A stretch of 64,000 bases of DNA, from assembly GCF_025751495.1 (NCBI RefSeq), contig NZ_JAOWKZ010000002.1, positions 186,001 through 250,000 on the forward strand. Direction: 5' to 3'. The stretch comes from Albidovulum litorale. GTDB taxonomy: Bacteria; Pseudomonadota; Alphaproteobacteria; Rhodobacterales; Rhodobacteraceae. How positions within the stretch are numbered: position 1 is the first letter of the stretch; each line of letters opens with the position of its first letter. The notes beneath the pieces are model-generated. The model did not search any database. It was not told the DNA's origin and saw only the letters and a list, made by a program, of their open reading frames with translations. This document shows, one piece after another, positions 4,334 to 17,392 of the stretch. The translations under genes were made by a program, and so were the position numbers.

Positions 4334-4582
4334 GCCTCGCGAAAACCTCGCGCGCCGTTAGAATCTTGCAGATTCACTTCTGCAGGTATCTGGCGCGCAG
4401 TCACAGGGTCGAGCATCAGCCTTGAGCCATGGCGAAGCTCCCGCTTCGGCGGGGCAAAACACTCGAGTTTGCGACTCGTGTGAGGGGCGTTAAGGCACAC
4501 AAACCGGCAAACAGGACCAAAACACAAAGCCAGACGCGCGAACTTGCCCGAGCCGGATATACGCTAAGTAATTGGAAAACCT

Positions 4583-4656
4583 TGGAGGCGGGTACCGGAA
4601 TCGAACCGGTCTACACGGATTTGCAATCCGCTGCGTAACCTCTCCGCCAACCCGCC
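4583..4656 (-). tRNA. tRNA-Cys (anticodon GCA)
   Basis: Read on the minus strand this gives a complete 74-base cloverleaf with encoded CCA. The acceptor stem GGCGGGT / ACCCGCC pairs at all seven positions, the T arm contains GGTTCGATTCC, and the anticodon loop TTGCAAA carries GCA (Cys). The discriminator base is T (U73), the known identity element of tRNA-Cys. The overlapping reading frames have no coding support. Confidence 0.96.
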
Positions 4657-4672
4657 GGACCGAGGCTTGCGT

Positions 4673-4701
4673 TGTCTATCGTGGGCGGCGGGCAGCGTCA
4701 A
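4673..4701 (-). promoter_or_regulatory. Putative sigma70 promoter of tRNA-Cys
   Basis: On the minus strand TTGACG (4701-4696) is separated by 17 bases from TAGACA (4678-4673). That places transcription start about ten bases before the mature tRNA 5' end at 4656. The -35 is 5/6 consensus and the -10 is weak, so the call rests on position and spacing. Confidence 0.5.
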
Positions 4702-4778
4702 CGGGCTGTGACGGGGGGTGTTCCGTTTCCCCCTCCAATAGCCTATATGGGGCGATCTTGATCCACAGGACCCGCCAG

Positions 4779-5975
4779 ATGTCTGATGCCAAACCGACCG
4801 TCCCCGTCACGCAGGATGTCGTGACCATTGCCCGCAAGCTGCCGGAAGGCGGGCGGGTGAACCTTGTCGGGCTGACGCGCGACCAGCTCAGCGATGCGCT
4901 GATTGCGGCAGGCACGCCGGAAAAGCAGGCAAAGATGCGTGTCGGGCAGGTCTGGCAGTGGATCTATCACTGGGGCGTGCGCGACTTTGCCGCCATGACC
5001 AACCTCGCCAAGGAGTATCGGGCGATGCTGGCCGAGACGTTCGAAATCGCGCTTCCGGAAATCGTCACCCGTCAGGTCTCGGCCGACGGCACCCGCAAAT
5101 ACCTTCTGCGCATCGCCGGCGGGCACGAGGTCGAGACGGTCTACATCCCCGAGGAAAACCGCGGCACGCTCTGCATCTCGTCGCAGGTCGGCTGCACGCT
5201 GACCTGTTCCTTCTGCCACACCGGCACGCAGAAGCTGGTGCGCAACCTCACGGCGGCGGAGATTGTCGGTCAGGTCATGCTGGCGCGCGACGATCTGGGC
5301 GAATGGCCCGAACAGGGCGCGCCGAAGAATGAAACCCGTCTTGTCTCGAACATCGTCCTGATGGGCATGGGCGAGCCCTTGTACAACTTCGACAATGTCC
5401 GCGACGCGATGAAGGTTGTGATGGATGGCGAGGGGCTGACCCTCTCGCGCCGCCGCATCACGCTCTCCACCAGTGGCGTGGTGCCCGAGATCGCCAAGAC
5501 CGCCGAGGAAATCGGCTGTCTGCTGGCCGTCAGCTTCCACGCAACGACGGATGAGATCCGCGACCGGCTGGTACCGATCAACAAGCGCTGGAATATCGAG
5601 ACGCTTTTGGGCGCGCTGCGGGACTATCCCCGGCTCTCGAACTCCGAACGCATCACCTTCGAATACGTGATGCTGAAGGGCGTGAATGACAGCGACGAGG
5701 ATGCGAAACGGCTGGTGAAGCTCATTCGCGGCATCCCCGCCAAGATCAATCTCATCCCCTTCAACGAATGGCCCGGCAGCCCCTATCAGCGCTCGGACTG
5801 GGAGCGGATCGAGGCCTTTGCCGACATCATCTACAAGGCGGGCTACGCCTCGCCCATCCGCACCCCGCGGGGCGAGGACATCATGGCCGCCTGCGGTCAA
5901 CTCAAGTCGGCAACCGAGCGGGCGCGGAAGAGCCGGGCCGAGATCGCGGCCGAGGTCGGGCTTCCGAACGGCTGA
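4779..5975 (+). CDS. rlmN: 23S rRNA (adenine2503-C2)/tRNA (adenine37-C2) methyltransferase RlmN
   Basis: Radical-SAM enzyme that methylates C2 of A2503 in 23S rRNA and of A37 in some tRNAs. The 398-residue product has the iron-sulfur triad CxxxCxxC at Cys139, Cys143 and Cys146 (CTLTCSFC), Cys132 just before it, and Cys372 in EDIMAACGQ near the C-terminus, the residue expected to carry the transient methyl group. Further family motifs are GMGEPL, TLSTSG, LAVSFHA, and the late NLIPFN strand. ATG 4779 is chosen because the upstream extension runs through tRNA-Cys. It stands alone: the next gene begins 368 bases downstream. Confidence 0.95.
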
Positions 5976-8116: not shown

Positions 8117-10228
8117 TTATCCGACGGCTTCCGATAGACGCCATTCATGCAACAGAACGTCAACCGCCAGACACCCTTCAAAAGTCACGAAGAGTGGGTT
8201 GATCTCTACCTCGGCAATCTCACTAACGTGGGTGATAACGGCTACGGCAAAATCCGCGATCTCGTTTGCAAGAAGACCAATATCCACCGCCTTTGAACCG
8301 CGATAACCGTCAAGTAGGCGCGCGACCTTCAGCCTTCGAAGCGCCGTCTCGATCTCGGCAGCGCCCGCGGGCAGAAGCAGGGTCGTGCTGTCACCGACGA
8401 GTTCGGTCAGTATGCCGCCGGAGCCGAGTGTCAGGGCCATGCCGAATTGCGGGTCGGAGCGGATCGAAAGGATCAGTTCGGCTGCGGGTTTCGGCGCCAT
8501 TGCCTCGACCAGAAAACTGTCGGTGACGGCTTCGGGATTATGGGCGTGGACGGTGCGCCGCATGGTCTCAAGCCCCGTCTGCACCGCGTCGGCATCCGTC
8601 AGGCCCACGGCGACTGCGCCGGCCTCGGTCTTGTGGGCAAGGTGCGGCCCGATCATTTTCAGCACCACAGGAAAGCCGAGATGTTCCGCCGCTGCCACCA
8701 CGTCATTGCCGCTGACCAGTCGGCCCTCTGGCACCGGCAGTCCCAGTTCGCGCAGACGCGCCTTGCCGGCGGCTTCGTCGATCATATGCAGGGCACCCGA
8801 CGGTCGTGCGGGCAACAGCGGTGCAGGTTTCGCCTCGACAATCCGTCTGCGCATCGCGCTCCAGCGCGTGGCGGCGCGGATCGCGTTAAGCGTCTCGTCG
8901 ATCCCCTGCATCGGGGCGACACCTGCTGCGACCAGCGCGTCGCGGGTCTCGGCGTCGATGTTTTCGGGCAGGGTAGCGCAGATTGCGGCGGGGATTCCCT
9001 GACCTCGGGCGACCTCAGTGAAAGCCTTGGCATCGTTAAGGTAGTAGACCTTAGATTCGTCGAGTCCCTCTGCGGGGTAGTCCTGCACCAGCAGGGTCAC
9101 GTCGGCCTCCGCGAGCGCCATGGCTCGACCGAAGACGGGGCCGGTGATGGCAGGCTGGCCCCAGATCGGGGTTGTGTAGTCCAAGGGGTTCGAAACCGTG
9201 GCGATGGGCGGTAATAGCGCCGCAAGTTCGGCGCGGGCAGCCTGATCGAATGAGGGAAAGTTGAGACCTATCGTCTCCGCATGGTCGGCCAGCATCGTTG
9301 CCCCACCGCCCGAACAGGTAAAACCTGCGACTCGATTGCCCTTTGGCGCGCCTGCCACGCAGAGGAATTTCAGGGTTTCCAGAAGCTCCGATGGGTTCTT
9401 GACCCGGATCACGCCGCAGCGATCGAAAAGAGCATTGTGCAGATCGTCGGCACCCGAAAGCGAGCCGGTATGGCTGACGGTCAGGCTCGCCCCGATCTTT
9501 GAAGATCCGGTTTTCAAGGCGACCACCGGCACGCCCCGGTCTAGCGCCTTGAGACAGGCCGCCTCAAACGCGCGGACATCGCGCAGACCTTCGATATGGA
9601 TGCCGATGGCGCGGACGGCGGGATGGTCGGCGAGGTGGTCGACAAAATCCTCGATCGTCAGAACCGACTGGTTGCCACCCGAGATCATGTGGGTCAGGGG
9701 GAGCGAGCGCTGCGCCATGGTGATGTCGGACGACAGCATCCCCGACTGGGTGATGATCGCGGCCCCCCAACCGGGGCAGGTGCCGCCATGGGCGAAGGGC
9801 CAGAGCGCCGCGCGGTCGAGATAGTTGATCATGCCGTAGCAATTGGGCCCGATCAGCGCCATATCGCCAGTGGCTTCGATCAATTGTCGCTCAAGTTCCA
9901 CCCCTATGTCACCGGCCTCACGGAACCCGGCCGTGTAGCAGACGACGCCCCCGGCCCCCATCGCCGCAAGCTCGCGCACCGCCTCCACTGCGGCGGGGGC
10001 GGGAACTGCAAGAAACACGGCGTCGGGTGTCTCGGGCAGGTCGGCCAGATTGCGATAGCAGGGATAGCCGCCAAGCGTGTCGCGCTTGGGGTTCACCGCC
10101 CAGATATCACCCAGAAACCCGCGCCTGTCCGCTTCCTTGATCGCGACCTCAGCGTCGCGCCCGCCGACAAAGGCGATGTGGCGCGGGTTCAGAAGCCGGT
10201 TCAGATTGGCGCGGCGTTCCGGCGTCAT
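8117..10228 (-). CDS. ADP-forming acyl-CoA synthetase (acetate-CoA ligase family)
   Basis: A 703-residue acyl-CoA synthetase with the fused domain order of NDP-forming ligases: an N-terminal CoA-binding Rossmann domain (IAFVGG near residue 20), succinyl-CoA-ligase-like domains with NCYG in LIGPNCYGMINYLD, the phosphohistidine-loop SHTGSLSG, and a C-terminal ATP-grasp domain (GFPVVLKMIGPHLAHKTEAGAVAVGL). It should activate a carboxylate with CoA and ATP. Its ATG (10228-10226) overlaps the stop of the acyl-CoA dehydrogenase gene (ATGA), so it is the last gene of the seven-gene operon; the in-frame extension to 10321 lies inside that neighbour. By context the substrate is probably what the operon's importer brings in, perhaps gamma-butyrobetaine or a related betaine (inference). 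Confidence 0.87.
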   Translation of the reverse strand: MTPERRANLNRLLNPRHIAFVGGRDAEVAIKEADRRGFLGDIWAVNPKRDTLGGYPCYRNLADLPETPDAVFLAVPAPAAVEAVRELAAMGAGGVVCYTAGFREAGDIGVELERQLIEATGDMALIGPNCYGMINYLDRAALWPFAHGGTCPGWGAAIITQSGMLSSDITMAQRSLPLTHMISGGNQSVLTIEDFVDHLADHPAVRAIGIHIEGLRDVRAFEAACLKALDRGVPVVALKTGSSKIGASLTVSHTGSLSGADDLHNALFDRCGVIRVKNPSELLETLKFLCVAGAPKGNRVAGFTCSGGGATMLADHAETIGLNFPSFDQAARAELAALLPPIATVSNPLDYTTPIWGQPAITGPVFGRAMALAEADVTLLVQDYPAEGLDESKVYYLNDAKAFTEVARGQGIPAAICATLPENIDAETRDALVAAGVAPMQGIDETLNAIRAATRWSAMRRRIVEAKPAPLLPARPSGALHMIDEAAGKARLRELGLPVPEGRLVSGNDVVAAAEHLGFPVVLKMIGPHLAHKTEAGAVAVGLTDADAVQTGLETMRRTVHAHNPEAVTDSFLVEAMAPKPAAELILSIRSDPQFGMALTLGSGGILTELVGDSTTLLLPAGAAEIETALRRLKVARLLDGYRGSKAVDIGLLANEIADFAVAVITHVSEIAEVEINPLFVTFEGCLAVDVLLHEWRLSEAVG

Positions 10229-11385
10229 GCCCCAAGCGGCCTCAGGATTGACCGGGTGATGATGTGACGCTGAATCTCTGACGTGCCGTCCCAGATGCGT
10301 TCGATCCGCGCATCGCGCCAAAGGCGCTGCACCGGCATCTCCTCCACCAGCCCCATGCCGCCGAAGACCTGCACGGTGTCGTCGGCGACGCGGTTCAGCA
10401 TCTCAGAGCAATAGACCTTGACCATCGCTGCATCCTCATCGCGCATGATGCCCTGATCGGCGCGGCGCACGGTGTCGGCGACCAGAAGTTCGGCGGTGCG
10501 GAGCCCGATCGTCATGTCGGCCAGGCGGAAGCCGGTCGCCTGAAACTGGCCGATGGGTTGACCGAACTGCTTGCGGGTGGCGCACCAGTCGGTGGCAAGC
10601 GCGATCAGGCGTTCCGCCTTGCCGCAGCACGACGCCCCGATCCAGACCCGCCCCATGCCCAGCCATTTGCCCGCCAGTTCAAAGCCGCGCCCCTCCCCGC
10701 CCAGAACCTGACCGGGGCCGAGGCGGACATTGTCGAAGATCAGCTCGTAGGTCTTGTAGCCGCGATTGGAGACGCATTTGCTGCCCTCGCGGAAGGTCAC
10801 GCCGGGCATATCGCGATCGACGAGAAAGGCCGTGACGCGCTTTCGCGGGCCACGTTTCGTCTCATCCACCCCGGTCGCGGCAAAGACGATGGCGAAATCG
10901 GCCATGGTCGGGGCCGAGATGAAATGCTTCATCCCGTTCAGGATCCAGTCGTCGCCGTCCTGCTGCGCGCGGCTTTGCATCCCCATCGCATCCGATCCCG
11001 CGCCGGGTTCGGTCAGCCCGAAGAGTTCGCGCTTTTCGCCACTGACACACGGCATGAGGTACTTGTCGACCTGTTCACCCTCACAGGCCAGCAGCAGTTC
11101 CGTCGGCCGTGCGATCCAGGAATGCAGCGCATGGCTCGTGCGCCCGAATTCACGCTCGATGATCGACATCTGGGTGTAGTTTAAACCGCCGCCACCCACT
11201 CGTTCCGGCAAGTTGGCGGCAAAAAGACCAAGCTCCTTCGATTTCCGCTCGATCTCGCGGCCGATCTCTTCGGGGACTTCTCCGGTCTGATCGACCATTT
11301 CCTCATGCGGGATCACTTCCTTGTCGAGAAAGGTACGGACAGAGGCGCGCAGAAGCTCGTCCTCATGCGACAGGGTGGCGTTCAT
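10225..11385 (-). CDS. Acyl-CoA dehydrogenase with Asp at the usual catalytic Glu position
   Basis: A 386-residue FAD-dependent acyl-CoA dehydrogenase, introducing an alpha-beta double bond into the CoA thioester made by the neighbouring ligase. Family motifs are LTEPGAGSDA (flavin/substrate loop), RKQFGQPIGQFQ, QVFGGMGLVEEMPVQRLWRDARI and the C-terminal GTSEIQR. In the last motif the residue before GTSEIQ is Asp (IWDGTSEIQ, Asp366), where most family members have the Glu base (YEGT). ATG 11385 overlaps the upstream permease stop by one base (TGATG); the longer frame to 11517 lies within that permease gene. Translational coupling on both sides ties it to the importer and the ligase. Confidence 0.9.
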   Translation of the reverse strand: MNATLSHEDELLRASVRTFLDKEVIPHEEMVDQTGEVPEEIGREIERKSKELGLFAANLPERVGGGGLNYTQMSIIEREFGRTSHALHSWIARPTELLLACEGEQVDKYLMPCVSGEKRELFGLTEPGAGSDAMGMQSRAQQDGDDWILNGMKHFISAPTMADFAIVFAATGVDETKRGPRKRVTAFLVDRDMPGVTFREGSKCVSNRGYKTYELIFDNVRLGPGQVLGGEGRGFELAGKWLGMGRVWIGASCCGKAERLIALATDWCATRKQFGQPIGQFQATGFRLADMTIGLRTAELLVADTVRRADQGIMRDEDAAMVKVYCSEMLNRVADDTVQVFGGMGLVEEMPVQRLWRDARIERIWDGTSEIQRHIITRSILRPLGA

Positions 11386-12182
11386 CAGGTCTCTCCGGAA
11401 TTGCGGGTTCGGCGCGCGTTCAGCGCCTGAATGATGAAGAAGATGAGCGTGATGGCTATCAGCACGACGGCGGCGGCGGCGACCGTTGGATCGGTGTTTT
11501 CGCGGATGCCGTTCCACATGCGACGGGGTAGAGTATAGACGCTGAATTTCGACAGGAAGAGCGTCACCACGATCTCATCCCAAGATGCGATGAAGGCAAA
11601 GATCGCACCCGCCAGTACGCCGGGGCGGATCGAGGGCAGGATCACCCGCCGCATCGTCGTCCAGTTCGAGGCGCCAAGGTTGCGCGAGGCTTGCTCCAGC
11701 CTTGGATCGAAGCCTGCGAGCGAGGCAGAGACGGTGATCAGCACCAGCGGCGCGGCAAGGACGGTGTGCGCAAGGATCAGCCCTGCATAGGTGTCGATTA
11801 GGCCAAGGGGCACCATGAAGCGGTAAAACGCCATGGCCGAGATGATCGGCGGGACCACCAGCGGCAACAGCAGGAAAGCGCGCACAGCCTCGCCCCATTT
11901 CGATGAAACCCGCCAGAGGCCGATGGCGCAAAGCGTGCCAAGTGCCGTGGCAAGCGCCGACGAGGTCAGGCCGATAACCGCGCTTTGCCAGAAGCTCGAC
12001 ATCCATTCCTCGGACGTGAAGAGCTTTTCGAAATGGCGGAGCGACAGTTCCCCTTTGGGCATCGAAAGGAAGCGCTTGGGCGTCAGCGAGACCGGGATGG
12101 CGATCAAAGCCGGTGCCACGAGGAACAAGAGCAGAAGCCATGCCCAGTAACGATTCAGGGTTTCAGAAAAGTTGCGCCTCAT
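11385..12182 (-). CDS. ABC transporter permease (PotC-like, spermidine/putrescine type)
   Basis: A 265-residue inner-membrane permease with about six transmembrane segments, beginning with WAWLLLLFLVAPALIAIPVSL. The cytoplasmic EAA-type loop is LEQASRNLGASNWTTMRRVILPSIRPGVLAG, which contacts the ATPase. Length and pattern match the second permease (PotC class) of polyamine/opine/betaine-type importers. Its ATG overlaps the stop of the first permease (ATGA, 12179-12182), and its stop overlaps the start of the dehydrogenase gene. Confidence 0.9.
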   Translation of the reverse strand: MRRNFSETLNRYWAWLLLLFLVAPALIAIPVSLTPKRFLSMPKGELSLRHFEKLFTSEEWMSSFWQSAVIGLTSSALATALGTLCAIGLWRVSSKWGEAVRAFLLLPLVVPPIISAMAFYRFMVPLGLIDTYAGLILAHTVLAAPLVLITVSASLAGFDPRLEQASRNLGASNWTTMRRVILPSIRPGVLAGAIFAFIASWDEIVVTLFLSKFSVYTLPRRMWNGIRENTDPTVAAAAVVLIAITLIFFIIQALNARRTRNSGET

Positions 12183-13030
12183 GCCTTGGCCCCTCCGAAG
12201 ATGGTCGACAGCTTCATGAAGCGTGACATGAGGAAGAGAAGGGCGAGCACACCGAAGAGCATCAGCGCGGCCAGCATCGCCGCCGTGCCCCAGCGGAGCG
12301 TGACGAGGATCTGGACCGAGATATATTCGGCCACCATCAGCACCTTGCCGCCGCCGAGGATCGCGGGTGTGACGTAGAAGCCGAGTGACAGGATGAAGAC
12401 CAGAAGCGAGGCGGCGACAAGGCCGGGCTTGGTCAAGGGCAGGTAGACCCGCCAGAAAGTCTGGTTGCCCGTGGCGCCAAGGCTGCGCGAGGCGGAGAGG
12501 ACGCGACCGTCGATGTTCTGCATCGAGGCCAGAAGCGGCAGGACGGCATAGGGGATCATGTAGTGCACCATGCCGATCAGCACGCCCAATTCATTGCGCA
12601 TGAACTCGATAGGCTCGACGATGATGCCAATATTCACCAGCGTTTCGTTCACTAACCCCTTGCGGCCGAGAAGCATCAGCCAGGAGAAGGTGCGCACCAG
12701 AACGGATATCCAGAACGACACCAGCAAAAGGCTCAGCATCCGGTTGCGGCTGCCTTGGGCGACATGGACCATCGCATAGGCGATGGAATAGCCGAAGATC
12801 ACCGAAAAAACAGTGGTGATCACGCAGATGCGGATCGTCGTCCAGAGGATTCCGGTGAGGTTGTCCGAGGTGACGAGCGCCGCGTAATTGCCCAGCCCCG
12901 GTTCTGGGTCGGTCACGCTCAGCCACAGGATATTGACGATGGGACCAAGGAAGAGCGTCACCACAAGCGCAAGGAACGGCAGGACGAGAAGCCAGCCAGT
13001 GCCGATGCGCGTGATGGGGGAGCCGTTCAT
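12179..13030 (-). CDS. ABC transporter permease (PotB-like, spermidine/putrescine type)
   Basis: A 283-residue permease with six predicted membrane spans; the first is WLLVLPFLALVVTLFLGPIV. The coupling loop reads LSASRSLGATGNQTFWRVYLPLTKPGLVAAS, the EAA motif of the PotB class. It partners the following permease, with which it is translationally coupled. A 99-base gap carrying a strong hairpin separates it from the upstream binding-protein gene, consistent with lower expression of the membrane components. Confidence 0.9.
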   Translation of the reverse strand: MNGSPITRIGTGWLLVLPFLALVVTLFLGPIVNILWLSVTDPEPGLGNYAALVTSDNLTGILWTTIRICVITTVFSVIFGYSIAYAMVHVAQGSRNRMLSLLLVSFWISVLVRTFSWLMLLGRKGLVNETLVNIGIIVEPIEFMRNELGVLIGMVHYMIPYAVLPLLASMQNIDGRVLSASRSLGATGNQTFWRVYLPLTKPGLVAASLLVFILSLGFYVTPAILGGGKVLMVAEYISVQILVTLRWGTAAMLAALMLFGVLALLFLMSRFMKLSTIFGGAKA

Positions 13031-13095
13031 CTGGTCACTTCCACGGGAAATCTGGAAAGGGGCGGGACCGTCAGGCCCGCGCCAAGTCTCAGGGC

Positions 13096-13120
13096 CGGCG
13101 GCGCGGGAGCAGCGCCGCCG
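13096..13120 (-). other. mRNA hairpin between binding-protein and permease genes
   Basis: Perfect 9-bp stem (CGGCGGCGC / GCGCCGCCG; arms 13096-13104 and 13112-13120) with a 7-base loop in the gap after the substrate-binding-protein stop. No T run follows on the minus strand, so it looks like a 3'-end stabiliser or attenuator of the kind often found after binding-protein genes, not a full terminator. Confidence 0.7.
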
Positions 13121-13129
13121 GGTCGAGGA

Positions 13130-14239
13130 TCACGAGATCGCGTCGAGGAAGGCGTTCACGGCGTCGCCGCCATTCTCGCCCCACCAGGTCGGATCGTTAT
13201 AGACGATGTTGTCGATATTCATCGCCGAGGTGATCGCATAGGGCTGCTGATCCTCGGGGATCTGGGCGAACGCCTCTGGGTTCGAGGGCGTCATGCCGAG
13301 GCAGTCGAGCAATGTCAGTTGCGCGGGCACCGATTGCGCCGTGGCGATGAACTTCATCACCGCATCGCGTCCCGCCGGGTTGCCCTTCGGCACGATATAG
13401 GCGCCGGGCATGGCAAGGGCTTCGTTCATCACCAGCTTGTAGCGGCCGTCGGTGTCGTTCTCGATGTTGCGGCCACGGTTCTGCCAGACCATGCCCATCG
13501 ACACCTCGCCATTGACGACCATCGAATGCGCCTCGGAGCCCGAACCCCAGTAGAGGCTGTCATCCTTGATCGATTTGATCTTGGCGAGCGCCCGGTCCAT
13601 GTCCAAGGGATAGAGCGCGTCCTTGGCCACGCCATCGGCCAGAAGCGCGCCTTCAAGCGCCCCGTTGGCCCATTTGTAAAGCGAGCGCTTGCCCGGGAAC
13701 TTCGCCGTATCGAAGAAATCGGCCCAGGAGTTGGGCGGATTATCCCCGTAAGCCTCGGTGTCATAGACGAAGGCGTAGCCGTAAAGGATGATCGAAACGC
13801 CGTGTTCCAGCGCATATTGCGGCAGCGTCCGGTCTTTCGAGACGATGTCATAATCGATGGCTTCCAGATGGCCCGACGGCCCGAGCGCCACGGCGTCGAA
13901 GAGGTCAGCGTCGCAGACGTCGGCGGTGACATTGCCGCTGTCGACCATCTCCTTGATCTTGCCCTGCAAGGGGCCGGAGGTGTCGAATTTCAAGGGCATG
14001 CCTGTTTCGGCGGTGAAGGGATCGCCGATGGCCGCGCCGTGGCATTCCTCAGACTGGCCGCCCCAGTTCCACATGACGATTTCATTGGCCGCCGCCTCGG
14101 CATCGCCCGCGATCACCGACTGGGTCGCGATCCCGGCCATGCCGCAAAGGACCAGAAAGCTGCGCCGGTCCATCCGGCCTTCCTTGAACGCCCTGGCACC
14201 TTCCAGCGCCGTCTCACGCATGAATTGCTTGTCGTGCAT
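13130..14239 (-). CDS. ABC transporter substrate-binding protein (PotD/PotF-like), Tat-type leader
   Basis: A 369-residue extracytoplasmic binding protein for the importer of this operon. The N-terminal region carries DRRSFLVLCGMAGIA (about residues 24-38), a twin-arginine export motif with a hydrophobic core, followed by a likely cleavage site near AEAA. The mature part shows extracellular-solute-binding family features: IVMWNWGG at its start, VCDADLFDAVALG, GYAFVYDTEAYG and the conserved WADFFDTAKFPGKRSLY. A good ribosome site (AAGGAGGAG) precedes ATG 14239. Ligand is not readable; the neighbouring genes argue for a carboxylated amine such as a betaine. Confidence 0.9.
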   Translation of the reverse strand: MHDKQFMRETALEGARAFKEGRMDRRSFLVLCGMAGIATQSVIAGDAEAAANEIVMWNWGGQSEECHGAAIGDPFTAETGMPLKFDTSGPLQGKIKEMVDSGNVTADVCDADLFDAVALGPSGHLEAIDYDIVSKDRTLPQYALEHGVSIILYGYAFVYDTEAYGDNPPNSWADFFDTAKFPGKRSLYKWANGALEGALLADGVAKDALYPLDMDRALAKIKSIKDDSLYWGSGSEAHSMVVNGEVSMGMVWQNRGRNIENDTDGRYKLVMNEALAMPGAYIVPKGNPAGRDAVMKFIATAQSVPAQLTLLDCLGMTPSNPEAFAQIPEDQQPYAITSAMNIDNIVYNDPTWWGENGGDAVNAFLDAIS

Positions 14240-14306
14240 TCTTGTCTCCTCCTTGTTGGTCGGGCTTTGTGCCCGGTTTGGTCGCGGGTCCGTTCCTCCC
14301 TCCCGC

Positions 14307-15311
14307 TCAGTCGCTTTCCAGCCGGACCGCTGCCGCGTCCGACCAGCTCAGATCCACGTCGGTACCCTCGGGCAAGGGCGCGCCACCGCGCCAGGCATCG
14401 GCATCCACCTCGACCTCATCCATGCCCGGCACGGTAACGTCGTATTTCAGGGTGGAGCCGAAATAGGTCATCGCACGAACCGTGCCCGAAAGCGTGTTCG
14501 GCCCCTGTCCCGCGCCTTTAGGCGCGATGTCGATCTTTTCGGGACGCAGAGCATAAAGCGCGCCGTCCCGGGTCAGGAAATTCGACTTGCCGAGGAAACT
14601 CGCCGCGAAGCGTGTGCGGGGCTTCTGATACAGTTCCTCGGGTGTGCCGACCTGTTCGATGCGGCCCTGCTGCATGATCACGATGCGGTCGGACATCGAC
14701 AACGCCTCTTCCTGATCATGGGTCACGTAAATAAATGTCGTGCCGACGCGGCGGTGAATGTCCTTGAGCTGCGCCTGCACCTCGATTCGCAATTTTTTGT
14801 CGAGCGCGCCCAAAGGCTCGTCGAGAAGCAGGACTGGCGGCGCGAAACAGAGCGCGCGGGCCAAGGCCACCCGTTGCTGCTGGCCACCTGAGAGTTGGCC
14901 CGGCAAGCGGTGGCCGAAGTCCTGCAACTGGACGAGGTCAAGCATCTCATCAACGCGGGCCTCGATCTCGGCCTTCGGGCGTTTCCTGACATCGAGCGGA
15001 TAGGCGATGTTCTGGCGCACACTCATGTGCGGGAAAAGCGCATAGCCCTGAAAGACCATGCCGAAATTACGCTTCTCCGGCGGCATCCCGGCAATGCTGG
15101 TTCCGTCCAGAAGGATGTCACCCTCGGTGATATCTAGAAACCCGGCAATCATCATCAGAAGCGTGGTCTTGCCAGACCCCGACGGGCCTAGCAGCGTCAG
15201 GAACTCCCCGCGCCTGATATCCAGATTGACGTTCTCAGCCGCCGTGAAGCTGCCAAACCGCTTGGTCAGCGCCTGAAGCCTGAGGCCCCCCGAAGCGGCG
15301 CCTTCGGTCAT
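14307..15311 (-). CDS. ABC transporter ATP-binding protein (PotA-like)
   Basis: A 334-residue ATPase of the spermidine/putrescine (MalK-like) class. Walker A is GPSGSGKTT (residues 42-50), the signature LSGGQQQR begins at 140, Walker B LLLDEP is at about 161-166, and the switch histidine is in [12 protein letters not shown]-terminal TOBE-like regulatory domain follows ([10 protein letters not shown] onward). The ATG overlaps the stop of the BKACE gene (ATGA at 15308-15311). It powers import through the two permeases encoded downstream. Confidence 0.92.
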
Positions 15312-16198
15312 GCGTCGGCGCCCCGCAGCTTCAGCTTGTTGCGCGCCTCCTGCGGGGTCAGGACGCGGGCGCCCATCGCCTCTATAATCGTCCGGGCGCG
15401 TTCGACCAGCTGGGCGTTGGTCGCAAGCACTCCGCGCGACAGATAAATGTTGTCCTCCAGCCCCACCCGGACGTTGCCGCCGAGCGAGACAGCGGCAGCG
15501 ACCATCGGCATCTGCATCCGGCTGATGCCAAAACTGGCCCAGCTTGCGCCCGCCGGAAGTTGCGCCTTCATCGCCGCCATCGTCTCGACCGTCTGGTCGG
15601 CACCCCAGGGGATGCCCAGGCACAGCTGGAACATCGGCGGCGCGTCGATCAGCCCTTCCTCCACCATCGCTTTCGCAAAACGGATATGGCCGAGGTCAAA
15701 GACCTCCAGTTCCGGCTTCACGCCCCATTCCTGCGTCAGCGCGGCCATGCGGCGCAGGATCGGCGGGGTCGAGATATAGATCGTGTCGTCATTGCCGAAA
15801 TTCAGCGTCCCGCAGTCGAGCGAGCAGATCTCAGGCAGGCAATCCTTCACATGGGTCAGCCGCTCTTCCGGCCCGATCATGTCGGTCCCCGGCCCCGGCA
15901 TTGCCCAGTTGTCCTTCGATGGTACCCAGTCGCCGCCCATCCCGGCCGTCAGGTTGATGACGACATCGGTGCCAGATGCACGCACCCGGTCCACCACATC
16001 GCGGAAAAGCTTCGGATCGCGTGATCCTTTGCCGGTTTCGGGGTCTCGGACATGGATATGGGCGCAGGACGCCCCGGCCTTGGCGGCCTCGATCGCCTCG
16101 CGCGCGATGGCCTCAGGCGTCACCGGGACATGCGGGCTGATATGGGTCGTGGCACCGGCCCCGGTCACAGCACAGGTTAGAACCACCTCAAAATTCAT
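15308..16198 (-). CDS. Beta-keto acid cleavage enzyme (BKACE), dehydrocarnitine-type candidate
   Basis: A 296-residue zinc-dependent enzyme that transfers the beta-keto acid cleavage fragment to acetyl-CoA, giving acetoacetyl-CoA and a shortened product. The metal-binding HIHVRDP motif (His47, His49) and the late acidic motif VGLEDN (Glu248) are present. The stretches [29 protein letters not shown] and [13 protein letters not shown] resemble my recollection of dehydrocarnitine-cleaving members, which yield glycine betaine. It is the first gene of the operon, with ribosome site GGGAGG four to five bases before ATG, and diverges from a GlxA/CdhR-type regulator, as carnitine loci of other bacteria do. 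No carnitine dehydrogenase gene is in the window. Confidence 0.85.
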
Positions 16199-16279
16199 TC
16201 GACGCCTCCCAGCCTTTTCTCAATCCTTGGGCCGCAAAAGGTCTTTTCCTGTCAGTAATTCGACTGATATGCATATGCC
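16199..16279. promoter_or_regulatory. Divergent promoter/operator region between BKACE operon and GlxA-type regulator
   Basis: An 81-base gap between divergently transcribed genes must hold both promoters and the regulator's binding site. It contains the perfect palindrome ATATGCATAT (16267-16276) directly before the regulator's start codon, and an AT-richer core around 16215-16265. Exact -35/-10 elements are not clear. Confidence 0.6.
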
Positions 16280-17392
16280 ATGTCGAAAATTCGCACCTCA
16301 TCCGACCCTGCTGCCATGGCCCCGCCGCCTCGGGATCAGGCTGCCCGTCACGTGGCATTCCTGATCGTGCCGCGTTTCAACATGATGACGATGATGACCA
16401 TGATCGAGGTGATGCGGATCGCGAATTACCTCTCGCCTGCGCCGCTCTATTCGTGGGAAGTGCTGTCCTTCGACGGACAAGAGATCACCGCCTCAAACGG
16501 CTTCACGGTGGGCACGGCAGTGCCCGACGACCATATACGCCGGGGCGAAACGCTGTTCGTCCTCGGCTCATGGAACGCCGAGAATTACAAGAACACCCAT
16601 ACACTGGCATGGATTCGCAGACAGGCGCGGGGCGGCGTGCGGATGTGCTCGGTGGAGTTGGGCTGCTACCTTCTTGCCCGCGCCGGTCTTCTGTCGGGCA
16701 AGCGAGCGACCACGCATTGGTCCTGGATGTCGGGTTTCGAGGAACAATTCGACGAAGTGACCGTGGCTGAACAGCTCTTCACCATCGACGGACAGATGAT
16801 GAGCTGTGCGGGCGGTCTGGCCGGGGTCGATCTGATGCTGCGGGTGGTGGGGGATGAACATGGCGAGAGGCTGGCCGGAGAGATCGCCGACCAGATGCTC
16901 TATCACCCGATCCGCCCCGCCAATGCGCCGCAACGGCGGACGATGGGACGGGGGATGGAGTCGCTTGCGCCGATGGTGCGCGAGGCGATCACGCTGATCG
17001 AAAAGAACATCGCCGAACCGCTGACCGTGCCCGAGATCGCCGGGGAGCTTGGCGTGTCGCAGCGTCAATTGGAACGGCAGTTCAAAGCCTCGATTGGCTG
17101 CACGGTTGTACAATTCGGCCTGCTGCTCCGCCTCCAGCACGCGCGGGTTCTTTTGATTTCCACCTCGCTCTCGGTCCGCGAGATCGCGACCGCGTCGGGC
17201 TTTAACACGCTGTCGCATTTCGCCTATTCGTTCGGCAAGTGCTTTGGCCGACGGCCATCGGACTACCGTCAGGCCTGGCCTGAGAAGGACGCAACCCCGA
17301 GTTGGCCCGGCACCTTGTCGAAATTCCTCGAGGCGCTGGAGAACCGTGGGGCCGCAAAACCGATGCAAATTCTTAGGAAGACAAGCGGATAA
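16280..17392 (+). CDS. GlxA family AraC-type transcriptional regulator (CdhR/GbdR-like)
   Basis: A 370-residue regulator with an N-terminal DJ-1/PfpI-like (class-I amidotransferase-like) sensor domain (roughly residues 23-200: [15 protein letters not shown], a [15 protein letters not shown] elbow, TTHWSW) and a C-terminal AraC pair of helix-turn-helices (about 235-335: [22 protein letters not shown] and [26 protein letters not shown]). Such regulators control carnitine, betaine and related amine catabolism in Pseudomonas (CdhR, GbdR). It is transcribed away from the BKACE operon and is the obvious candidate activator, with the imported amine or a catabolite as ligand. Confidence 0.9.

Follow-up and report, generated by a model that had tools for sequence, protein, structure and literature searches.

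The window analysed here is a 64,000-nucleotide stretch of Albidovulum litorale DNA, positions 186001-250000 of contig C7 in a genome of 13 contigs and 4.05 Mb. It carries a seven-gene operon for a BKACE enzyme, an ABC importer, an acyl-CoA dehydrogenase (ACAD) and an ADP-forming-type acyl-CoA ligase, with a GlxA-type regulator gene divergent from it (Table 1). All eight genes are open frames with Pfam support, as an earlier note on this DNA had read them. That note also described the whole operon as fused by ATGA and TGATG overlaps. The junction letters agree at four of the six junctions, with ATGA at BKACE/ATPase, permB/permC and ACAD/ligase and TGATG at permC/ACAD, but gaps of 67 bp and 99 bp separate the ATPase gene from that of the solute-binding protein (SBP) and the latter from permB. 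The starts of the ligase, ACAD and ATPase genes were set from these overlaps.

Table 1. Features of the window operon, its partner genes and other genes discussed. Plain numbers are window positions; C3, C7, C8 and C10 denote contig positions.
Feature	Position	Strand	Evidence or remark
BKACE	15308..16198	-	PF05853 338.9 bits, gathering threshold 24.8
ABC transporter ATPase, PotA-like	14307..15311	-	PF00005 + TOBE_2; ATGA overlap with BKACE
Periplasmic SBP	13130..14239	-	SBP_bac_8; related to solved chains 9d57, 4eq7, 6dgv
ABC permease permB, PotB-like	12179..13030	-	PF00528 (BPD_transp_1); PotB model 158.8 bits, cut-off 348
ABC permease permC, PotC-like	11385..12182	-	PF00528 (BPD_transp_1); PotC model 147.3 bits, cut-off 326
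ACAD	10225..11385	-	Pfam acyl-CoA dehydrogenase domains; WDGTSEIQ, Asp for usual Glu
ADP-forming-type acyl-CoA ligase	8117..10228	-	CoA_binding, Succ_CoA_lig, ATP-grasp_5; SHTG motif
GlxA/AraC-type regulator, divergent	16280..17392	+	DJ-1_PfpI + HTH_18; best NCBIfam model GbdR 243.4 bits, cut-off 480
Divergent promoter region, 81 bp	16199..16279	.	operator-like element (TTTTCGACAT...ATATCAGTCGAA)
L-carnitine-dehydrogenase-like dehydrogenase	C7:9738-10682		best NCBIfam L-carnitine dehydrogenase PRK07066 316.4 bits, cut-off 414
CaiD-like hydratase	C7:10683-11480		best NCBIfam crotonobetainyl-CoA hydratase 318.2 bits, cut-off 500
Contig-3 BKACE	C3:46980-47855		
Contig-3 enoyl-CoA hydratase	C3:54063-54815		best model crotonobetainyl-CoA hydratase 298.5 bits, cut-off 500
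Second LLM module (L157)	C7:704600-714000		
Further BKACE paralogue	C8:877678-878571		near ABC importer
Further BKACE paralogue	C10:163911-164636		near aminotransferase-like gene (read by eye)
tRNA-Cys	4583-4656	-	antisense to N-terminal extension of the next ORF
rRNA-methyltransferase-like ORF	4572-5975	+	family named by eye

A scan of named genomes confirmed 192 loci with a relative of the window BKACE, of which the best 80 were kept for comparison (71-97% identical; the closest named relative in the scan, from Defluviimonas aestuarii, at 97%). By title they are mostly from Rhodobacterales, and also from SAR116, Hyphomicrobiales, other Alphaproteobacteria and a few Gammaproteobacteria; contigs of metagenome-assembled genomes (MAGs) are included, and two assemblies contribute two loci each. 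Layouts were obtained by mapping reference proteins onto the loci, a match being 40% identity or more, and the 80-locus counts include contig ends. The usual layout begins with AmSyn, CoA-transferase (often as a flavin reductase fusion), alpha/beta hydrolase and RidA, all on the same strand. Aldehyde dehydrogenase (ALDH), LLM monooxygenase, enoyl-CoA hydratase (ECH) and a dehydrogenase (DH) follow, then the regulator, and finally BKACE, importer, ACAD, ligase and a serine hydrolase. Matches per 80 loci number 69 for the ligase, 67 for DH, 66 for ACAD, 64 for ECH, 60 for the regulator, 50 for LLM, 47 for ALDH, 38 for the hydrolase, 37 for AmSyn, 35 for the ATPase, 34 for the SBP, 33 for RidA, 32 for each permease, 29 for the CoA-transferase and 21 for the serine hydrolase.

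ECH and DH stand immediately upstream of BKACE in 62 of the 70 loci with more than 3.5 kb of upstream sequence; the other eight are L063, L064 and L065 (Defluviimonas or near), L103, L104, L114, L115 and L139. Where more than 8 kb is available downstream (53 loci), the ligase follows BKACE in 52 (in L133 it is found on the opposite strand, upstream), ACAD in 48 (exceptions L083, L092, L110, L116 and L133) and importer genes in 26, with all four present in 25. Minimal loci retain ECH-DH-BKACE-ligase. Since the order of the window genes recurs in other named genera, it is not due to chance. An annotated example is Parasedimentitalea marina pW43B, where the hydratase is named carnitinyl-CoA dehydratase. 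The operon of Aminobacter pSR3 is closed by an acetoacetate--CoA ligase, as BKACE chemistry predicts.

The likely hydratase and dehydrogenase partners of the window operon sit elsewhere in the same genome. Genes for LLM, ECH and DH occupy C7:9738-12548. The distance to the nearer end of the window operon is about 182 kb, that to BKACE 191 kb, and the gene products are 72%, 80% and 77% identical, respectively, to the P. marina proteins. The nearest outside relative of this DH is a Citricoccus row (54%). A third piece lies on contig 3 at about 982-987 kb and encodes ALDH (83% identical to P. marina), alpha/beta hydrolase (61%), the CoA-transferase/flavin reductase (66%) and AmSyn (81%); RidA and the serine hydrolase had no match within the own-genome stretches compared. 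The genome search for cdhA and hydratase homologues that the earlier note had proposed thus gave matches on both C7 and contig 3. Its supposition that the missing enzymes lie elsewhere holds for the hydratase and dehydrogenase; both lie upstream of BKACE in relatives, and DH is co-inherited with BKACE. No dedicated thioesterase was identified in a genome-wide search that covered PF13279 only. This family has four matches, none beside the three located pieces and one being a fusion gene on contig 3. Among the hydrolase families that the module alpha/beta hydrolase resembles is a palmitoyl-thioesterase model, to which the match is weak (27.3, just above the cut-off of 26.8).

Co-inheritance was followed in an order-level sample of 390 genomes (completeness at least 90%) and in a genus sample of 22 genomes including that of the window. 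Window-type BKACE (76-100% identical) is present in nine of the 390 (G000, G067, G114, G168, G289, G326, G377, G415 and G418), and C7-type DH (E <= 1e-110) in exactly those nine. The CoA-transferase/flavin-reductase fusion (E <= 1e-150) is found in six genomes, all within the nine (G114, G168 and G418 are without it). In the genus, BKACE at 84% identity or more and DH at 87% or more share the same five of 22 genomes (G000, G001, G005, G006 and G021); looser DH matches in G002, G019 and G020 (39-40%), G024 (40%) and G025 (42%) were counted as other carnitine-dehydrogenase-like genes. BKACE and DH are neighbours in seven of the nine order genomes and lie 106 kb apart on one contig in G377. Within the genus they are adjacent in G006, about 18 kb apart in G021, far apart in G000 and on separate contigs in G001, where both contigs are large, and in G005, whose assembly has 570 contigs; these last three are the unlinked cases. 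The pattern over 390 genomes ties unlinked genes into one pathway. A further BKACE match (E <= 1e-80) occurs in all nine order genomes, as read from counts with individual rows for G000, G114, G168 and G415 only, and in all five genus genomes at 56-57% identity, so that window-type BKACE comes on top of the contig-3 type instead of taking its place.

The genome has four BKACE genes (in the window and on contigs 3, 8 and 10), and the window copy is 57% identical to that on contig 3. Residues H47, H49 and E248 of its zinc-site motifs are invariant in a nine-row alignment, the strict HxH pattern occurs in 72 of the 80 loci and the GLEDN pattern in all 80; we take the His-x-His and the Glu of GLEDN to bind zinc. 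The full BKACE tree has 36 rows, 20 of them window-type, including 17 from the 80 scanned loci. Here the window types join rows from Cupriavidus, Caballeronia and Citricoccus (branch 93/94), and the contig-3 and Agrobacterium type is separate. In a reduced tree, from which four long rows were removed (own C10 copy, Cupriavidus, Citricoccus and L105), the window types and two Caballeronia rows form one side of a 99/97 branch, and a topology that puts Caballeronia beside the contig-3 type fits less well (p-AU 0.035). One Caballeronia gene lies in a choline/betaine region, flanked on one side by a gene for a choline-type SBP and on the other by genes annotated as L-carnitine dehydrogenase and thioesterase; the second Caballeronia gene lies in an unannotated stretch. 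The window BKACE does not group away from dehydrocarnitine enzymes, an outcome that the earlier note had named as one half of what would count against its reading: its sister rows are of cdhC type, although none is biochemically tested. As it groups with the Caballeronia cdhC-type gene, our best guess is that it acts on a cationic, carnitine-like beta-keto acid.

Alternatively, the substrate of BKACE and the ligase could be a beta-keto acid that is not cationic, and the resemblance to carnitine genes would then reflect ancestry only. The family is described as promiscuous (PMC4922564), and the Cupriavidus BKACE beside the window type has no carnitine dehydrogenase in its annotated stretch. This explanation appears improbable given that DH and ECH are both carnitine-pathway-like and DH is co-inherited, that the regulator is GbdR-like and the sister group of cdhC type, and that the Cupriavidus row is a long branch. 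The Cupriavidus gene, near the window type in the full tree, is located on Cupriavidus pinatubonensis plasmid p2 (L155, 8001-8894) and adjoins two short-chain dehydrogenase/reductase (SDR) genes and hydantoinase genes.

The Pot-type importer is complete by Pfam, having an ATPase with TOBE domain, two BPD permeases and a periplasmic SBP. Closest to the SBP among solved chains are 9d57 (191.8 bits; an SBP-GFP fusion), 4eq7 (190.7 bits; labelled polyamine SBP) and 6dgv (185.1 bits; precursor of a fluorescent sensor for gamma-aminobutyric acid, GABA); presumably 4eq7 and 9d57 likewise bind GABA. GABA is the unmethylated analogue of gamma-butyrobetaine. The SBPs of the compared carnitine clusters, annotated as choline-type or longer and unspecified, are unlike that of the window. 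Relatedness to GABA-sensor and polyamine-labelled chains, together with Pot-type permeases, would also suit a GABA or polyamine importer standing merely beside unrelated catabolic genes. This is very hard to reconcile with importer genes following BKACE in the 26 loci counted above and, in the window, overlapping or abutting BKACE and ACAD; moreover, GABA breakdown, to our knowledge, requires none of these operon enzymes.

The window ACAD has Asp before GTxxIQ where its contig-3 relative has the usual Glu, at a position which we take to be the catalytic base. The Asp motif occurs in 63 of 66 related ACAD rows, and the other three have no readable motif. Relatives of the ligase in the PDB are 8wzu, 7cm9 and 9y43. 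Its scores against 8wzu (4-hydroxybutyrate--CoA ligase, 228.4 bits) and 7cm9 (DddX-type lyase/ligase of dimethylsulfoniopropionate, DMSP; 227.8 bits) are similar, placing it in the superfamily of both with no orthology shown, and it is far below NCBIfam equivalog cut-offs. Its SHTG motif is presumably the phospho-His site. DMSP or gonyol breakdown, considered for the resemblance to DddX and the many marine relatives, was set aside as speculation. A minus-strand ORF of L006 (13238-14410) was rejected as a gene, being antisense to ACAD.

From these gene families, their synteny and co-inheritance and the BKACE phylogeny we infer a series of reactions, their order and a class of substrate. The window operon is reasonably likely to belong to a dedicated pathway of betaine import and beta-oxidation/BKACE cleavage that is split into three or more pieces in this genome. 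The SBP and Pot-type importer would take in a zwitterionic, betaine-type omega-ammonium carboxylate, the ADP-forming-type ligase would form its CoA thioester, ACAD would yield the 2-enoyl-CoA and the CaiD-like hydratase would add water. CoA could then be released by a thioesterase, the module alpha/beta hydrolase, the CdhB domain of the contig-3 fusion or ligase reversal. The L-carnitine-dehydrogenase-like enzyme would oxidise the 3-hydroxy acid, and BKACE would react the product with acetyl-CoA to form acetoacetate and a betaine-type acyl-CoA, with the GlxA regulator in control of the pathway. If this scheme is right, the chances are about evenly divided between gamma-butyrobetaine/crotonobetaine itself as substrate and a homologue or precursor-derived relative, e.g., delta-valerobetaine or an acid made by LLM and ALDH. 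The betaine/carnitine direction given in the earlier note is thus backed by the grouping of BKACE with a cdhC-type gene and by CaiD-like and L-carnitine-dehydrogenase-like partners, and its exact substrate stays at candidate level. Our verdict on this evidence is that the locus is real, conserved and partly understood, and would constitute a second carnitine/BKACE-type pathway, dedicated to its own task and dispersed over the genome.

The other set of this kind is an operon on contig 3. Its BKACE gene is followed downstream by a small ORF without Pfam match and a CdhA-CdhB-type fusion, carnitine 3-dehydrogenase/thioesterase, which scores 778 bits (above the NCBI cut-off of 592), and further by genes for an SDR, an ACAD, an ADP-forming acyl-CoA ligase and an enoyl-CoA hydratase. 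A. fabrum pAt (L151) carries an operon with such a fusion as well. In Sinorhizobium, a 3-hydroxyacyl-CoA dehydrogenase is reported to oxidise carnitine and to convert betainyl-CoA to glycine betaine (PMC12482172), as expected of a dehydrogenase/thioesterase fusion. Contig-3 CdhAB was considered as the source of the missing steps and rejected, as a dedicated DH with the same presence pattern exists; it is possible for the thioesterase step.

The window set might be plainly redundant, a second gamma-butyrobetaine/carnitine pathway for the contig-3 substrate with a different uptake system, which we regard as unlikely though a serious contender. Both sets share BKACE, ACAD, ADP-forming ligase, CaiD-like ECH and a carnitine-DH-like enzyme, and their BKACEs are close homologues. 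However, the stable co-residence of both BKACE types in all nine order and all five genus genomes suggests that the two sets have different tasks. Between them DH is 37%, ACAD 48% and the ligase 38-40% identical, the fusion is used on contig 3 only, the ACAD base motif of the window has Asp instead of Glu, and the CoA-transferase/flavin-reductase fusion is co-inherited within the nine genomes. A genome can contain two such carnitine-type sets in parallel, and annotation would merge them.

For the remaining genes of the long loci, the simplest idea is that the module of LLM, flavin reductase, ALDH, CoA-transferase, hydrolase, RidA and AmSyn supplies the acid from a larger precursor via an aldehyde. 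In a rival version, the compound imported is a larger, cationic and perhaps N-heteroaromatic one, which the LLM monooxygenase, flavin reductase, ALDH, alpha/beta hydrolase and RidA turn into the acid fed to the operon, so that the betaine-type acid is only an intermediate. ALDH-LLM-ECH-DH are consecutive on one strand in many loci; among loci with more than 6.5 kb upstream, LLM and ALDH, counted anywhere in the locus, are each found in 41 of 59. In the genome of the window, LLM stands with ECH and DH, and ALDH, alpha/beta hydrolase, CoA-transferase/flavin reductase and AmSyn are together on contig 3. This version is nevertheless rather unlikely: ECH-DH-BKACE-ligase loci without an LLM match exist (L083, L092 and L126), the fusion is absent from three of the nine order genomes, and close relatives of known function are lacking for LLM, whose best scores are 121.6 bits among NCBIfam models (cut-off 166.9) and 83.5 bits among PDB chains. 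A homarine/trigonelline-type ring opening was considered for the LLM module and set aside. Tentatively, the locus may encode an undescribed pathway for a betaine other than gamma-butyrobetaine/carnitine, spread in Roseobacter, SAR116 and other Alphaproteobacteria, in which a two-component flavin monooxygenase and ALDH make the acid first, ADP-forming ligase, Asp-base ACAD, hydratase, carnitine-like dehydrogenase and BKACE then process it, and whose locus of about 17 genes is split in Defluviimonas-like genomes with the pieces co-inherited.

The second LLM module on C7 contains genes for flavin reductase, ALDH (76% identical to P. marina), LLM (81%), AmSyn and alpha/beta hydrolase. It also includes a TPP enzyme nearest sulfoacetaldehyde acetyltransferase models, a CMD protein and an agmatinase-like ureohydrolase, and an MttB-family methyltransferase gene is convergent to it.

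Between the regulator and BKACE genes lies an operator-like element that close relatives also have at this place. Its motif was derived by home-made expectation maximisation on 47 intergenic sequences (60 minus near-copies) and then scored in five regions of the genome itself. A loose pattern of paired half-sites matches 35 of 60 loci, leaving out those of SAR116 and several distant ones. Two of the five regions rank in the top 1% of random own stretches, the LLM operon (0.28%, a partial match) and the second LLM module (0.68%). The other three do not, namely the contig-3 ALDH/alpha/beta hydrolase piece of the pathway (16%), the contig-3 carnitine operon (14%) and the importer upstream on C7 (15%). 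Motif scores upstream of ALDH in ten other loci range from -0.5 to 17.4.

Several results tell against a dedicated second betaine pathway or weaken the case for it. BKACE, ligase, ACAD, regulator, ECH and DH match no curated NCBIfam model above cut-off, only broad Pfam families, and Pfam finds no thioesterase gene among the seven operon genes. The C7 DH is only 46% identical to Caballeronia CdhA and 37% to the own CdhA. No row of the BKACE trees is biochemically tested. Adjacency of BKACE and DH explains most of the order-level pattern, so the independent, unlinked part of the co-inheritance is small. With the contig-3 operon present, a second set for the same substrate would be redundant. Finally, we know of no role for an LLM/flavin reductase/CoA-transferase module in the known carnitine route.

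Among known systems we take the Pseudomonas/Burkholderiales carnitine operon to be cdhC-cdhA-cdhB with CdhR, compared here in the copy of Caballeronia sp. M1242 (L150). Like it, the window set has a BKACE of the same sister group, a nearby, divergent gene for a GlxA-type regulator and a DH with PRK07066 as best model; unlike it, the set has another importer type, ACAD, ADP-forming ligase and CaiD-like hydratase and no thioesterase gene. Enterobacterial cai genes (CaiA/B/C/D) share the CoA-level dehydrogenation and hydration type, CaiD being the best match of ECH, but the window set differs in its ADP-forming-type ligase, its ACAD (162.9 bits against a CaiA cut-off of 540) and BKACE cleavage at the end. 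A marine SAR11 region likewise joins carnitine dehydrogenase and BKACE; in the gene list consulted, which was compared by list and not by sequence, gamma-butyrobetaine dioxygenase stands with an importer of glycine betaine, and neither a CoA ligase nor an ACAD is named (PMC12421898). The carnitine importer of Ruegeria pomeroyi is cntTUVW (PMC10130141). No description of the present locus was found in searches of an open-licence library, which lacks most subscription papers. Betaines matter in the sea as currencies of both nitrogen and carbon, and importers without a known ligand are among the chief obstacles to interpreting marine metabolism; the locus gives a short testable list of substrates and candidate genes for the seemingly missing dehydrogenase and hydratase.

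Some related loci carry additional genes, named by eye. In two Hyphomicrobiales MAGs without ALDH match, a Mo-hydroxylase-like trio stands right after the ligase (L083:13060-16738 and L092:13054-16645) and would fit an aldehyde oxidation step. Downstream of the ligase in L126 (15080-17497), peptidase-M20-like and creatinase/Xaa-Pro-peptidase-like genes are possibly another entry route. Elsewhere in the window, a tRNA-Cys gene is antisense to the extended N-terminal part of an ORF resembling rRNA methyltransferases, and the TTG start assigned to this ORF is probably too far upstream.

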